Of a DNA stretch of 64,000 bases, positions 15,477 to 46,223 are shown in pieces (the stretch's first letter is position 1; each line of letters starts with the position of its first letter). The notes below the pieces were generated by a model, which was given only the letters and a program-made list of their open reading frames with translations, searched no databases and was not told the origin of the DNA. The stretch is from NCBI GenBank assembly GCA_903848645.1, contig CAINGU010000118.1, positions 1 to 64,000 of the forward strand, in the 5' to 3' direction. Origin of the DNA: an uncultured cyanobacterium (GTDB lineage Bacteria > Cyanobacteriota > Cyanobacteriia > Cyanobacteriales > Nostocaceae). The position numbers and the translations under genes are program-made.

Positions 15477-15629
15477 GGTTTTTGCGCTTGAGTCAGGGGT
15501 GAAGAATCAAAAGTCTTCCTCTCCACCCTATCACTCCATCACCCTAGCATTTTGTGATTCAAGACTCGAAAGGAGGCAGGGGGCTTTCTCGCAGGGGGAG
15601 AAATTTCTTTCTTCTTCTTTCTCCTGACT

Positions 15630-15739
15630 CATGGGTTCATGGGTTCATGGGTTCATGGGTTCATGGGTTCATGGGTTCATGGGTTCATGGGTTCATGGGT
15701 TCATGGGTTCATGGGTTCATGGGTTCATGGGTTCATGGG
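15630..15739. repeat. octamer tandem repeat CATGGGTT, nearly 14 copies
   Basis: Thirteen perfect 8-bp copies plus six bases of a fourteenth. Because 8 is not a multiple of 3, it is open in several frames (MGSWVHGF units), but I see no sign of a real protein. It lies between the oxidoreductase and psbQ and should be highly variable between strains. Confidence 0.95.
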
Positions 15740-30657: not shown

Positions 30658-33600
30658 ATGGTATACGTCAAGCGCGTTGAACTTACCAATTTTAAATCCT
30701 TCGGTGGGACTACTTCTGTCCCTTTGCTACCGGGGTGTACTGTCATATCTGGGCCTAATGGTTCTGGAAAGTCAAATATTCTGGATGCTTTGCTGTTTTG
30801 TTTAGGACTGGCTAGTTCTAAGGGTATGCGAGCAGAACGTTTACCGGATTTGGTCAATAATGCTCAAAAACATAAGGGACGTTCGGCGCTAGAAGCTAGT
30901 GTAACTGTAACTTTTGATATTTCCGATGTCTCTCGCAAAAGCGCAGAGGTGCAGAGGGAAGAAGTAGGGGAAGTAGGGGAAGTAGGGGAAGTAGGGGAGG
31001 TCGGGGAAAATCCAAAATCCAAAATCCAAAATCCTCTGACTGGAGTGTAACTAGACGGTTGCGGGTATCTCAGCAAGGGGGGTATACATCGAATTATTAC
31101 ATTAATGGTGTGGCTTCCACTCTGACTGAGTTACATGAGCAGTTGGAGGAGTTACGAATTTATCCTGAAGGGTATAATGTGGTGTTACAGGGTGATGTAA
31201 CTAGCATTATCTCGATGAATGCGCGGGAACGTCGGGAAATTATTGATGAATTGGCCGGGGTGGCAACTTATGATCGGAAAATAGTCCAAGCTAAGTCTAC
31301 TTTGGATGAGGTTAAAGATAAAGAAGATAGTTGTCGGATTATTCAAACTGAGTTAAGTGTACAATGCGATCGCCTGTCTCAAGATAAGGCTAAGGCGGAA
31401 AAGTATCAATTATTGCGAATTGAATTTATCCAGAAACAATCTTGGGAAGCGGTGTTATCTTGGCGTTCTCTCCAAACACAGCAAGAAAAGCTAGTTGCAC
31501 AAGTTCAAGAGGGAGATCGCAGTTTCAGTGATTTTACTAACGAATTACTAACAACTAATTCTCAAATCAATCAGAAAACTACTGAACTAGATCAACTCAA
31601 TCTCCGAGTTAAGGCTTTGGGTGAGGAGGAACTTCTTTCTGTTCAGTCTAATCTCGCTACCCAAGAAGCAGAACGGAAACAACTCCAGCGACAACAACGG
31701 GAATTAGAAGCATCTATTCAAGAATCTACAAAGCGATTAAATCAAACTTGTCAAGAAATTCAACAATATCAACTTGCTTTAGAGGAAGCTAAGAAAAAAC
31801 AAAATGTAGAAACGGTAAATGCAACGTCTCTACAATCAGAACGTGACAACGCTCAACAAAATCTAGAATCTTCTCGTCAAGCTGCTGCGGAAATTGCCAC
31901 CGCTTCGGAAGCTTGGGTACAACAACAAACGGCATTAAATCGGCAAATTGAATCTTTATTACATATTCTCGAACCCCAACGCACTGAACAAGCACAATTA
32001 CAAGAACGCAATACTCAATTACAACAATTTATTTCTGAACAATCTCAGTTAATTGCAACTTTAGAACCGGAATTAGCTCAAAAACAAGTTGAATGTGTGA
32101 GTTTGGAAACGGAATTTAATGCTTCTACCCAACCCATTCAGAATTTAGCGGAAAATCTGGCTGCTACAGAACAAGAGTTACAAATTCAACAAGATACCCA
32201 AAAACGACTTTTACAAGAACAACGGGACAAACAACGTCAATTAGATAAATTAGAAGCACAAACCCAAGCTCAACAGGAAATACAAGGAACACAAGCTAGT
32301 AAAGTAATTTTACAGTCAGAAATGCCCGGTTTGTGCGGTTTGGTGGTGCAGTTGGGTAAGGTTGAACCTAAACATCAATTAGCGTTGGAAATGGCTGCTG
32401 GTGGACGTTTAGGGCATATTGTTGTTGAAGATGATAGTGTAGCATCTGCGGGCATTGAACTGTTAAAACAAAAACGGGCAGGGAGGGCAACTTTTTTACC
32501 TTTAAATAAGATTAAAGTCCCTAGATTTACTCAAGATGCAACTCTGCGTTTAGCTGATGGTTTTGTCAGTTATGCGGTAGATTTGGTAGAATGCGATCGC
32601 CGTTATCATGATGTATTTGCCTATGTTTTTGGCGCAACGGTAGTATTTGCCACTCTTGCCCAAGCAAGGAAAAACATGGGATTATATCGTATTGTCACTT
32701 TACAAGGGGAATTATTAGAAACTAGCGGGGCAATGACTGGAGGTAGTAGTAGTCAACGTTCATCTTTACGCTTTGATAGCGGTGAAGCCGGAGAATCTCA
32801 GGAAGTCGCTAATTTAAAAACTCGCTTAATAGATATTGATCGCATTTTAGACCGTTGTGGAGAAGCAATTTCTAATTTAGGAACTCGCACTAAAACATTA
32901 ACTTTAGAATTAACGGAAGCGCGTCAAGGACGGAGAGAACAACAATTATATTTAGAACAGTTAAAGAAAGAGATTAAGAGTTTAACAACGCAGTTAGAAA
33001 ATACTCGTTCTCAACTTTCCCAAAATACCCAAAAATTTACATCTGCACAATCCCGTTTAGAAATTTTAAATCGGGAATTACCAGAACAAGAAACTCAGTT
33101 ACAACAATTGAGACATACTTTAGCTGAGTTGGAATCTTCCCAAACCCCCAGCGAATGGCAACAAATCCAAGCTATCATTAAAACCCAAGAACAGGAATTA
33201 CAACAACGAGAAACTGCGTTAAGAGATGTTCAACAACAATTAAAAAATCTTGAAAATCAGCAAGAGCGGTTACAAGAAAAAATAGAAGAATCCCAAGCGC
33301 GAGTTATTCAATATCAACAAGAAGAAACAACTGGAAAACAGCAACAAGCAACAGTTAATAGTCAAGTTGAGGAATTGAATCATTTAATTACTGCAATGCA
33401 AGCTAATTTGCGGAAATTAGAAGAAAATTTAGGAGAAGAAAAGAAAAATCGGGATACAGCAGAAACGGAATTGCGATCGCTCTTATTGCGTCAACAACAA
33501 TTACAATGGGAAATTGAGAAACTCCAAGAAACTCAACAAAAACGCCGGGAAGACTTAACAGCACTACAAACGCAATTGCGAGATTTAGGTGCAGAATTAC

Positions 33601-34286
33601 CCAGTCCCCTCCCAGAAGTTCCCAATAAAGTTGATTTAGAAGACTTACAAAAAGAATTGCGGAGTTTAGGTAAACGTTTACAGGCAATGGAACCTGTGAA
33701 TATGTTAGCTTTGGAAGAATTTGATAAAGTCCAAGGTCGTCTCCAAGAACTTACCGAAAAACTAGAGACTTTGGAAGGGGAACGGACAGAATTATTATTA
33801 AGAATTGAAAACTTTACCACCCTCCGTCAAAAAGCATTTAAAGAAGCTTTCGACGCAGTAAATGAGAATTTCCAATCTATTTTTGCTATTCTTTCCGATG
33901 GTGACGGTTATTTACAACTAGATAATCCCGAAGATCCTTTTAACAGTGGCTTAAACCTAGTCGCACACCCCAAAGGAAAACCTGTTCAACGGCTTGCTTC
34001 TATGTCAGGGGGAGAGAAATCCTTAACTGCATTAAGTTTTATCTTTTCCCTGCAACGTTATCGTCCATCTCCATTTTACGCCTTTGACGAAGTAGATATG
34101 TTTCTAGACGGGTCAAATGTGGAACGATTAGCGAGAATGATTAAACAACAGGCAGAACAAGCGCAGTTTATTGTAGTGAGTTTGCGCCGTCCGATGATAG
34201 AATCAGCACAGCGGACAATTGGTGTAACTCAAGCTAGAGGTGCTTATACTCAAGTTTTAGGTATTAAGTTGCAATCGTCTAATTGA
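30658..34286 (+). pseudogene. smc: chromosome segregation ATPase SMC, frameshifted by a heptamer repeat
   Basis: The N-terminal part (30658-31050) has the SMC start and Walker A GPNGSGKS (32-39). The rest continues in another frame, from [20 protein letters not shown] (codons from 31044) to 34286, with long coiled coils, the hinge (about 32290-32760), the signature SMSGGEKSLTAL and Walker B FYAFDEVDMFLDG. Together they make about 1200 residues, normal for SMC. The shift lies at EVG repeats (9-bp, 30961-31005) followed by four AAAATCC heptamers (31007-31034). All other parts look intact, so the break is recent, reversible or a sequencing error. SMC compacts and separates chromosomes. Confidence 0.85.
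30961..31034. repeat. 9-bp GAAGTAGGG and 7-bp AAAATCC tandem repeats inside smc
   Basis: Five 9-bp units (30961-31005, the last imperfect) keep the frame. The four 7-bp units (31007-31034) do not. One more heptamer, or two fewer, would join the two smc frames. Confidence 0.9.
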
Positions 34287-34425
34287 TAGGTAAGAGCTAA
34301 GAAGTGAAAAAAATTTATCTTTTCAATTACCCATTACCAATTGTCAAGTTTCTCTTAAAATATAGTGATATACATAAACCGGATTCGAGATTGCCTACGG
34401 CACAGCGAACAGGACGTACCTGGTG
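34119..34425. repeat. flanking direct repeat A: smc 3' end plus spacer
   Basis: The last about 165 bp of smc and the spacer ending GATTCGAGATTGCCTACGGC are repeated, in degraded form, at 36890-37230. The two copies bracket the two-gene module at 34487-36720. Confidence 0.85.
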
Positions 34426-34486: not shown

Positions 34487-35617
34487 ATGCAAGTAAAAAT
34501 CATTGGAAAAGCAAAAGATTTACGAACAAATACAGATATTCTTTATGCTCAATTATCTATACAAGACTATTTAGATTTAGTAGGTGATAACTTTGATGAT
34601 TATGAACCACAAAGAAAACGTGAGAAATATAAAGCATATGAACGCATGAAAATTGACATCATGGATGGTGCTCTGTTACCTTCCATAACTCTCGCAGTAA
34701 AACCAGAACTAGTGAGTGATATCTTACCCATTGTACAAAAAGATGACTGGCAAGAACTTGAAAGCGCATTAAGTAAACCAGGACAAGTAAATATTTTAGA
34801 TGGATTACAACGTACGTTTATTCTAAAGGACATAGCTAAGGAGGATTTTGACTTTAAGTCAGGACAAAAAGTTCTTGTGGAGTTCTGGCTTGAAGGTAAC
34901 ATCCGAAATCTTATTTACCGGATTATTGTCCTAAATGCAGGACAGAAACCTATGTCGATGAAACATCAGATCGGTCTTTTGTTCATTACTCTAAATGACA
35001 CACTTAAGGCCGAAATACCAGATATTGAAATTTTCAAAGAAAAAGAATCTGCACGCCGAACAAAGGCTAGGAAGTACCCTCTCGATAGAATTGCCACCGC
35101 ATATCAAAGTTTTATAACCAAAAGTCCAGAAACACAGAGACAAAATGTTGTCGCACAGAAATTAGTGGAAGAAGAAATTTTAGATTCTACAGAAGAACAA
35201 CTTGGAGATCAGTTTGATGCTTTCAAAAATTATCTAAGAATTTATGCTGATTTAGATGTTGAAGTATCTCGAATATATATAGGAAATGCTGATAAAGAAA
35301 TACCAAATGGTATAAAATGGTTTGGAGAAGAAAGTGTTATAAACTCTTTTTTTGCTGCCCTTGCCCTTGTATCTAGCAATAATTCAGAGCGAGTACAAAA
35401 GGCTTTAGATACTCTTTTAAAATTACTTAGAGATACAAAAGAAGATGATGATCCTCTCGCGTTAGGAAAATTACAGGAGTTAGAAAGTGGATTTAATGCG
35501 CGTAAGGTAAGTCTGGGCTTTGCAAAAAGGAAACTTCTGACAAATGGATTCAAAGAATACTTTCGTGAAGCAGGAAAAGAAAGTTTTGTTAATTGTTGGA
35601 TAACAGCAGCAGAGTAA
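34487..35617 (+). CDS. ParB/DndB-like (DGQHR-type) domain protein, first gene of an accessory pair
   Basis: 376 residues, no membrane segment. The N-terminal about 190 residues look like a DGQHR/ParB-sulfiredoxin fold: YERMKIDIMDGALLPSITLA (about 52-71), ILDGLQRTFIL (about 103-113, a variant of the DGQHR motif) and VLNAGQKPMSMKHQ (about 148-161). Such domains occur in DndB and related defence or DNA-modification proteins. The C-terminal half is helical and unassigned. It lies 2 bp before the second gene and both sit between duplicated smc ends, so they were probably acquired as a unit. Function is inferred only. Confidence 0.6.
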   Translation: MQVKIIGKAKDLRTNTDILYAQLSIQDYLDLVGDNFDDYEPQRKREKYKAYERMKIDIMDGALLPSITLAVKPELVSDILPIVQKDDWQELESALSKPGQVNILDGLQRTFILKDIAKEDFDFKSGQKVLVEFWLEGNIRNLIYRIIVLNAGQKPMSMKHQIGLLFITLNDTLKAEIPDIEIFKEKESARRTKARKYPLDRIATAYQSFITKSPETQRQNVVAQKLVEEEILDSTEEQLGDQFDAFKNYLRIYADLDVEVSRIYIGNADKEIPNGIKWFGEESVINSFFAALALVSSNNSERVQKALDTLLKLLRDTKEDDDPLALGKLQELESGFNARKVSLGFAKRKLLTNGFKEYFREAGKESFVNCWITAAE

Positions 35618-35619
35618 CT

Positions 35620-36720
35620 ATGAAATATGATGATTTAAAAGAACTTGATGATACTGATCTTCCCTATGATATAACTCACTTCTCTGAGCATGATGGTATC
35701 TGCACTCTGAACGGAATGATACCGATATCAGTAGATGCGGTATCCTTTTCTTACGAAAGTGATGAAGACATTGAAATTTATGATGAGCGTGATAATTTTT
35801 TGGGTGTTCTCTGTATATGTAAATCTATTACTGATATAAATATTGTAAGTCTAACAGAGGCAAGATATATTGCTTATATTCATGAAGTTGATAAAAATAC
35901 GTTTAAGCAAGGGCTTCCCTACAAATTCACTAAAAACTACTTGGTGATTGATGTATGTGAATATGACGATTATAAAAATAAATATATGGATTCTGCACCT
36001 ATTTGGGGAGGATTTTTTCATTCAAATGCAGAATCTAGCTTACCAGAAGCATATCGTTTTCAGCCTTCTAAATTGATTGCTAGACCTAGAATTATACTTC
36101 CAACTGACTATCATAAAGAAAGTTGCATTCGTTCGGTAGTCCAGCCCTATGCTTTTGAAAGATTTTTAAAGCTTTATCACCTTCTGGAACTGATTTTTGA
36201 CTGGAACTTAGTTCAGGAAATAAAAACTTTAAATGATGATTTACAAGGAATAGCACGGTTACTCAATGAATATAGCGGCAATAACGAACTTGAACGGTTA
36301 AAAGTTTTACTGAAAAGAAAATGTGATGATAATAAAAAACTTGATAAAATTGCAGATTGTCTAAATAAAATTAACTCTCCAGATTATTTAGATAAGGGAA
36401 TGAAGATTTTTTTCGATTATAGTAAAAGCGGCAATCCTTACAAAATCAGTAATATTACTCCATTTTCGGATCTAATGTCACAAGGAGGATTTAAGCGAAC
36501 TAACACTAAAGAAAACAATCCAAACATTAAAGGCATAGCAAACAACACTTATGATAATTTAGTGATTGAGCTTTCAGCCTATTTTATATATCGTGTGAGA
36601 TGTTGTATTGCTCACAATCGCATAGGTGAGTACGTTATGTCCAATGATGACGAAGGATTCGTTGTTGAATTTGCTGAACCCTTGCTTCGTGAGGTACTAT
36701 GTCAAATATTTAGTCAGTGA
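35620..36720 (+). CDS. protein with C-terminal HEPN-like R-x4-H motif, second gene of the accessory pair
   Basis: 366 residues from the ATG at 35620, two bases after the first gene's stop; a TTG 27 bp earlier is in frame but would overlap that gene. The N-terminal half is acidic and unassigned. The C-terminal about 180 residues are helical and include RVRCCIAHNRIGEY, giving R327-x4-H332, the spacing of HEPN ribonuclease motifs. HEPN proteins in defence and toxin systems cut RNA. With its partner it may form an RNase-based defence or toxin system. I know no named family that joins these two proteins. Confidence 0.55.
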   Translation: MKYDDLKELDDTDLPYDITHFSEHDGICTLNGMIPISVDAVSFSYESDEDIEIYDERDNFLGVLCICKSITDINIVSLTEARYIAYIHEVDKNTFKQGLPYKFTKNYLVIDVCEYDDYKNKYMDSAPIWGGFFHSNAESSLPEAYRFQPSKLIARPRIILPTDYHKESCIRSVVQPYAFERFLKLYHLLELIFDWNLVQEIKTLNDDLQGIARLLNEYSGNNELERLKVLLKRKCDDNKKLDKIADCLNKINSPDYLDKGMKIFFDYSKSGNPYKISNITPFSDLMSQGGFKRTNTKENNPNIKGIANNTYDNLVIELSAYFIYRVRCCIAHNRIGEYVMSNDDEGFVVEFAEPLLREVLCQIFSQ

Positions 36721-36752: not shown

Positions 36753-36893
36753 ATGGTTAGCCTAGCATTTGCCTGGACACAAGCAACCGATGTACCTTTG
36801 ATTTTGGGACAGGCTAATTTCTTCTTTGAGTTTGATGTCTGTTTCTTTCGTGCGCGTTCTGAATTTGAAATCTGCCCCAAAAAGGTTAGATAA
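36753..36893 (+). pseudogene. C-terminal fragment of a retropepsin-like aspartyl protease gene
   Basis: 47 codons read ATDVPLILGQANFFFEFDVC, FFRARSEFEI, CPKKVR and stop. The PLILGQxNFF...FDVCFFR pattern resembles the end of small bacterial retropepsin-like proteins. No N-terminal DTG active site is present. It lies between the two-gene module and repeat copy B. Confidence 0.5.
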
Positions 36894-37230
36894 AGTAGAA
36901 CAATTAGCTAGAATGATCAAACAACAGGCAGAACAGGCAGAACAGGCACAGTTTACAGTTGTGAGTTTGCGCCGTCTGATGATAGAATCAGCACAGCACA
37001 GCACAGCACAGCATAGCACAGCATAGCACATAGTTAGTGTAACTCATAGCTAAAAGTGCATACAGTCAAGTTTTGGGGATTAAGCTACAATCATCTGATT
37101 AGGGAACAGGGAATAGGAAAGAAGTTTACCAATGACAACTGACAACTGACAACTGACAAATTTCTGTTAAAAATAGACATATACATAAACCAGATTCGAG
37201 ATTGCCTACGGCACGCTACGCGAACAGGAA
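36890..37230 (+). pseudogene. direct repeat B: degraded second copy of the smc 3' end
   Basis: The frame reads VEQLARMIKQQAEQAEQ and VVSLRRLMIESAQ, clearly the last helix region of SMC, then breaks in CAGCACAGCA repeats. It resumes as CAAGTTTTGGGGATTAAGC (VLGIKLQ) and the same spacer as after smc. The copy is diverged and carries a CAACTGA heptamer run (37126-37158). Confidence 0.85.
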
Positions 37231-43524: not shown

Positions 43525-43533
43525 GGAATTGGG

Positions 43534-43604
43534 GATTGGTAATTGGTAATTGGTAATTGGTGATTGGTGATTGGTGATTGGTGATTGGTGATTGGTGATT
43601 GGTG
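43534..43604. repeat. heptamer tandem repeat TTGGTGA/TTGGTAA
   Basis: About ten 7-bp units in the spacer between the two peroxiredoxin genes; the unit changes from GGTAATT to GGTGATT along the run. Confidence 0.9.
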
Positions 43605-43656
43605 AGAATTTTAGGAGTAGCGTTTCGTAGGCTCTATTTTGAATTTTGAATTATTT

Positions 43657-46057: not shown

Positions 46058-46223
46058 AGGTAATAGGTAATAGGTGACAGGTGACAGGTGATAGGTGACA
46101 GTTAAGAGGTAATAGGGAATAGAGAATAATTAGTTACCAATTACCAATTACCAATTACCAATTACCAATTACCAATTACCAATTACCAATTACCAATTAC
46201 CAATTACCAATTACCAATTACCA
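46058..46223. repeat. two adjoining heptamer arrays, TAGGTAA-like and TTACCAA
   Basis: The second part (46134-46223) is about 12 near-perfect TTACCAA units. It separates glgC from the P-loop gene and is the longest heptamer run in the window. Confidence 0.95.

Follow-up and report, generated by a model that had tools for sequence, protein, structure and literature searches.

An out-of-frame heptamer array in the smc gene of a bloom-type cyanobacterium lies in a loop that is filled with short repeats across the family

Introduction

Can a short tandem repeat inside a core chromosome-organising gene act as a switch for that gene? The question is raised by smc, encoding the structural maintenance of chromosomes (SMC) protein, in a 64,000-nucleotide stretch of DNA (the window) from an uncultured member of the Nostocaceae. 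The gene spans positions 30658-34286 of the window, and the halves flanking four AAAATCC units (31007-31034) read cleanly but in different frames. The window is from contig C118 of a 5.41-Mb genome (G000; 119 contigs, 99.99% complete), and the host is a bloom-type cyanobacterium. An original prediction had proposed that slippage of the heptamers could turn SMC on and off, or that a sequencing or assembly error had hit the repeat. The evidence described below leads us to favour, at roughly even odds, an accidental and recent slip in a permissive, normally frame-keeping loop of SMC, with no selected switch.

Results

Layout of the smc locus

The features of the locus are collected in Table 1. 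The 5' piece encodes 130 amino acids, contains the motif GPNGSGKSN and terminates in an out-of-frame NPLTGV followed by a stop codon. The tail is read in a frame offset by two ((31059-30658) mod 3 = 2), which is open from about 30918 (an open frame of 1122 amino acids), is homologous to SMC from about 31035 and ends at 34286. The first ATG, GTG or TTG codon of this second frame is the TTG at 31059, 8 nucleotides past the stop of the 5' piece. In Pfam, both pieces matched SMC_N and the tail also matched SMC_hinge, and the Walker A head, the hinge and the C-terminal head piece of a condensin-type SMC were all found; the single continuous reading frame of such a protein is missing from this assembly. 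The predicted picture of two intact halves shifted in frame across heptamers, with neighbouring 9-bp units that keep the frame, was therefore borne out by the sequence, the open reading frames (ORFs), Tandem Repeats Finder (TRF) and Pfam. A full-length SMC from a second intact gene had also been considered, and a search of the window's own genome found no second smc; the sole other match, at 36892-37005, corresponds to just 35 amino acids left over from an smc 3' end.

The linker keeps the frame in relatives

The stretch between the conserved VTVTF and WSVTRRLRV sequences, here termed the linker, was compared across 121 smc regions, comprising 40 places in genomes designated by G numbers, 80 named loci and the window, with some assemblies represented twice. 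The genomes were chosen as one per species. The named loci were the best 80 of 280 matches and are hence biased towards intact genes; those nearest in sequence belong to Anabaena, Dolichospermum and Aphanizomenon strains. A complete linker was extracted from 112 regions. Among the other nine, four regions (L094, L120, L128 and L137) break off within or close to the linker, and L119 is interrupted where its circular contig begins. The start pattern failed to catch the linkers of L187, L188, L204 and L205, which proved open on checking. After deduplication 95 distinct linkers of 45-291 nucleotides remained, and in 94 of them the length is divisible by three, the window's 125 nucleotides being the sole exception. 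The place of the linker was also length-variable in 20 genomes of other families.

Within the genus, linkers with flanks like those of the window carry runs of either two (G003) or five (for example G002, G008, G010 and G011) AAAATCC-type units, degenerate ones included. These counts fit the arithmetic of the original prediction, which holds, that one more heptamer or two fewer would restore the frame. Four such units are found in frame in G092 and G093, where the flank is different. In many species, for example G006, G004, G014 and G063, the AAAATCC array is missing or degenerate, or other sequence takes its place.

A survey of family genomes, not biased towards intact genes, gave a match in 215 of 217, and the best 150 matches were used. 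Among these, the frame was at least 1188 amino acids long in 142 genomes and shorter than 1100 in eight (G009, G022, G138, G177, G005, G135, G185 and the window). The frames of G009, G022 and G138 stop at contig ends, and the match in G177 ceases near a contig end. In G005 (L090), G135 (L114) and G185 (L117), which are genomes of one to five contigs, the frame changes beyond the linker. The change in G005 lies just past the linker, next to six consecutive G, and that in G185 next to seven consecutive A; no run of five or more is near the change in G135. All three are possibly sequencing errors. Separately, one family genome (G223, 99% complete) gave no match to the SMC N terminus at 1e-25.

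Selection on the smc tail

The 1081 codons of the smc tail contain no stop. The ratio of nonsynonymous to synonymous substitution rates (dN/dS) was calculated for the tail of the window with our own script for Nei-Gojobori counting. The six relatives with the smallest dS (0.28-0.36) gave values of 0.085 (G014), 0.075 (G010), 0.064 (G013), 0.059 (G008), 0.066 (G004) and 0.072 (G002); the other 13 relatives gave 0.089-0.138, and pairs of nearest neighbours gave 0.053-0.172. The intact tail of low dN/dS, together with the in-frame linkers of relatives, therefore indicates that SMC is selected to stay in frame, and smc appears to be constrained still, or to have been so until very recently. With no other lesion in the gene, the frame break should therefore be either very recent or not real. 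The low dN/dS and the absence of other lesions oppose the classification of smc as a pseudogene, which was considered and rejected.

Short repeats fill a loop of the SMC head

The nature of the linker was explored by comparing the 95 distinct sequences with 950 stretches of the same lengths from smc tails. A 7-nucleotide periodicity was present in 54 linkers (15 of the control stretches), a 9-nucleotide periodicity in 26 (one control stretch) and a GCGCAGAG-type motif in 64 (five control stretches). At least one of these repeat types was found in 79 linkers and none in 16. The heptamers fall into several families, with AAAATCC in 29 linkers, ACTCAGC in seven, ACTCCCC in five and AGTCCCC in three, plus others.

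The sequence CGCAGAGGCGCAGAGG is dispersed across the genus, being present in 16 of 16 genomes with between one copy (G002 and G003) and 47 copies (G014), G000 having five, and the reversed control gave none in each. Its distribution beyond the genus is patchy (25 of the 41 genomes searched in all); in G016 and G019 there are matches to the reversed control as well, nine and two, respectively. In the genome of the window, the 19-base form of the GCGCAGAG-type motif and the 9-bp array are each confined to smc, with one mismatch allowed. Not all parts of the loop are therefore genome-wide repeats here.

The N-terminal 250 amino acids of the relative L129 could be aligned to SMC heads of known structure from archaea and bacteria, in which the place of the linker is a short turn, a few residues near position 90 of Pyrococcus furiosus SMC (1xew). 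On this basis the linker probably forms a surface loop of the SMC head. An AlphaFold model of the L127 N terminus had a mean predicted local distance difference test (pLDDT) score of 58.8, and values below 50 were found for the linker (residues 93-121) as well as for residues 15-41 (Walker A), 51-58 and 166-183. Since confidence is low outside the linker too, the model is uninformative on the loop.

AAAATCC arrays elsewhere in the genome and in other protein loops

Searches with (AAAATCC)3 gave 24 matches in G000, overlapping ones counted, and matches in all 16 genus genomes; the reversed control gave none in any of them. G000 holds 19 arrays of at least three AAAATCC units, with one in smc, six in ORFs longer than 1000 nucleotides and 12 not covered by an ORF longer than 291 nucleotides. 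NCBIfam assigned five of the long ORFs to LL-diaminopimelate aminotransferase, GpsA, PurL, CarB and MnmE, and the sixth had no NCBIfam match. The GpsA array directly precedes the matched domain, and where that gene truly starts is uncertain. Because of the way in which they were picked, the arrays in long ORFs are necessarily in frame, and a check of the ORFs flanking the arrays, which relies on ORFs alone, was used in place of a frame count. No same-strand ORF of at least 80 amino acids runs into any of the 12 other arrays as the smc 5' piece does, and two of the 12 are covered by opposite-strand ORFs of 85 and 97 amino acids. The other 18 arrays thus show no similar break, and general miscounting of arrays in this assembly was therefore not seen.

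Two of the other proteins were followed across relatives. The PurL loop could be read in all but one of 30 loci (from a search of 31 genomes) and the CarB loop in 22 of 30 (eight were missed by the pattern), and every length was a multiple of three. The PurL loop is filled with AAAATCC-like units in most members of the genus, with a CCCAGTC-type unit in G009 and with a GGGGAGCAG-type unit in G016. AAAATCC-like units occupy the CarB loop of G000, G008, G003 and G011, and a short plain loop is mostly found elsewhere. AAAATCC arrays of one and the same kind thus occur both outside genes, as judged by ORFs alone, and in frame within conserved proteins.

A further 26 distinct arrays were collected from the other genus genomes, with at most two matches sampled per genome. 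Thirteen fall within open frames of 900 nucleotides or more, and all 13 are in the sense orientation (encoding the hydrophilic KSKIQNP), as are the six long-ORF arrays of G000. One of the 13 is the smc of G002, and two (L231 and L249) seem to lie just upstream of a gene start. Because the same genes recur, this strand bias of coding arrays is suggestive only.

Downstream of smc and other arrays in the window

Two genes directly after smc (34487-36720) match the PADLOC models DzbA (E 6.5e-116) and DzbB (E 2.2e-77) and form a candidate phage defence pair, which we take to be the system named Dazbog. A 2.4-kb stretch at L127 (G002) is 87% identical to this region of the window. Beyond the pair, at 36892-37229, lies a decayed copy, at 70% identity, of 34116-34414, that is, of the smc 3' end and the DNA downstream of it, as if an island had entered at the smc 3' end and either brought or displaced a copy. 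A second copy of the smc 3' region is also present at L097 (G012). The decayed copy in the window contains an array of CAGCA pentamers (36989-37030; 8.4 copies, 89% matches). Three further arrays in the window are listed in Table 1.

Table 1. Features of the smc locus and other tandem arrays, in window coordinates.
Feature	Position	Strand	Description
smc 5' piece	30658..31050	+	N-lobe of SMC ATPase head with Walker A; SMC_N, E 1.3e-26
Variable linker	30916..31040	+	past VTVTF, up to WSVTRRLRV; 125 nt, not a multiple of three
GCGCAGAG-type repeat segment	30941..30959	+	19 bases
9-bp array, GAAGTAGGG	30961..31008	+	EVG codons, frame neutral; TRF 5.3 copies, 92% matches
AAAATCC x4	31007..31034	+	short tandemly repeated repetitive (STRR)-type heptamers; TRF 100% matches
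smc tail, second frame	31035..34286	+	remaining N-lobe, coiled coils, hinge, C-lobe; no further lesion
TCATGGGT x13.9 array	15629-15739		
ATTGGTG x11.1 array	43528-43605		
TTACCAA x12.9 array	46134-46223		

Discussion

The interpretation that we favour is that the SMC head loop is permissive and that in heterocystous cyanobacteria it acts as a sink for short repeats, which would be retained if together they leave a length divisible by three. A recent replication slip in the sequenced strain would then have left four pure AAAATCC units and placed smc out of frame. Pure repeat arrays are prone to slippage, and this array is pure. The four units would in that case truly be present in the DNA of the cells; the off allele could be a variant of the culture, or could be carried on some of the chromosome copies, with polyploidy presumably acting as a buffer. 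Several points weigh against this interpretation. An assembly error would fit the break too, and the assemblies of three or four relatives break in or near the same loop (G009, G022 and the L128 and L137 contigs, of which G009 and L128 are perhaps one strain). It would be surprising to find SMC lost for good when 142 of the 150 family genomes used have the long frame, and the check on other AAAATCC arrays was made by ORFs alone.

It could be that the unit count of the strain is in frame and that the count in the contig is wrong, an explanation that we hold to be possible, if tentative. It is favoured by an smc that shows no signs of decay and by the assembly breaks just mentioned, and the frame changes elsewhere in smc of G005, G135 and G185 would point the same way if they are indeed errors. 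However, ordinary reads exceed arrays of 28-35 bp in length, and no other AAAATCC array of G000 looks miscounted in the ORF check. Note that a longer tandem repeat of the related Anabaena sp. WA102 is described as having been mis-resolved when short reads were assembled (PMC4907049), which calls for caution with the smc array. The original prediction's error option fits, as does a chance slip, and its switch option finds no support. Adaptive phase variation, in which gain or loss of heptamers toggles SMC, would draw on a pure heptamer array within an ORF that is one unit from frame, with one count in three arithmetically on. If a switch were maintained, the array would be expected to be conserved and off states to be common. 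With one genome per species compared, this reading is unsupported because the off state is found in one of 95 distinct linkers and the repeat family at the site varies between species and is missing in some. The target is moreover a core gene, hit in mid-domain and under strong purifying selection, and we consider such a switch unlikely.

Slightly less likely again is a broader version of the slip, in which slippage-prone loop repeats in core proteins (SMC, PurL, CarB and MnmE) would generate reversible mosaics in polyploid filaments, with off alleles on some chromosome copies or in some cells, buffered by the others, and SMC dosage drifting within a filament. A fixed loss of SMC, tolerated since the organism copes without the protein, would have a parallel in G223, but the tail without other lesions and of low dN/dS makes any loss very recent at most, and the gene is intact in nearly all of the family genomes used; we regard it as very unlikely. 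The least probable explanation is rescue by recoding, either through a -1 ribosomal shift where the two frames overlap or through reinitiation at TTG 31059 to give an SMC in two pieces split near the loop. Both frames are jointly open over about 30918-31050 and the TTG lies close behind the stop, but the check for ribosomal slippage found no strict X_XXY_YYZ site in the overlap, where weaker sites were ranked and are possible. The product of TTG 31059, with no earlier start codon available in that frame, would lack WSVTR, which is invariant in 25 aligned relatives, and the two-piece protein was rejected on this ground.

The locus and the wider pattern of loop repeats can be set beside several known systems. 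Small dispersed repeats of Nostoc and the varying heptamers of the tRNA-Leu intron have reportedly been studied. The phase-variable contingency loci likewise have a pure repeat within an ORF, with a unit that is not a multiple of three and a count that sets the frame; unlike them, the locus described here has a single off state among the distinct linkers, an array that is not conserved and a housekeeping target. Compared with the SMC family at large, the head, coiled coil and hinge are alike, whereas the loop between two head strands is longer and variable. Heptamers of the form GGGGA(T/C)T in Nostoc PCC 7120 vary in unit number and are described as over-represented in non-coding and under-represented in coding DNA (PMC4692102). 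The STRR heptamers of that account resemble the present ones in being tandem at many places in the genome, but the arrays here are in frame in conserved genes, and AAAATCC is not named in the accessible part of that study. The Rickettsia palindromic element (RPE) is described as an intergenic repeat family that also occurs in frame within conserved proteins (PMC2229807), a trait that the present repeats share; however, the element is palindromic and 105-146 bp long, whereas the smc loop holds short tandem or dispersed repeats, several families of which swap at one loop. In Borgs, virtually all repeats within ORFs are stated to have lengths divisible by three and most to give disordered regions (PMC9879509), but Borgs are archaeal extrachromosomal elements, and here the loops belong to bacterial core genes and 7-bp units are in frame only by total length. 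Among literature titles and the openings of abstracts, a scope that lies outside most subscription papers, no report of heptamers filling loops of cyanobacterial housekeeping proteins, or of a cyanobacterial smc mutant, was found.

For practical purposes, the locus is a warning that frameshift calls in repeat-filled loops need read support. Should the four units prove genuine, a core chromosome-organising gene can house a 7-bp repeat and sometimes be broken by it. Of greater interest is the wider pattern of repeats that fill loops in housekeeping proteins: across a bacterial family, the same loops of SMC, PurL and CarB gain, expand and exchange repeats, almost only in multiples of three, and so provide a natural experiment in which protein loops are born from DNA repeats.
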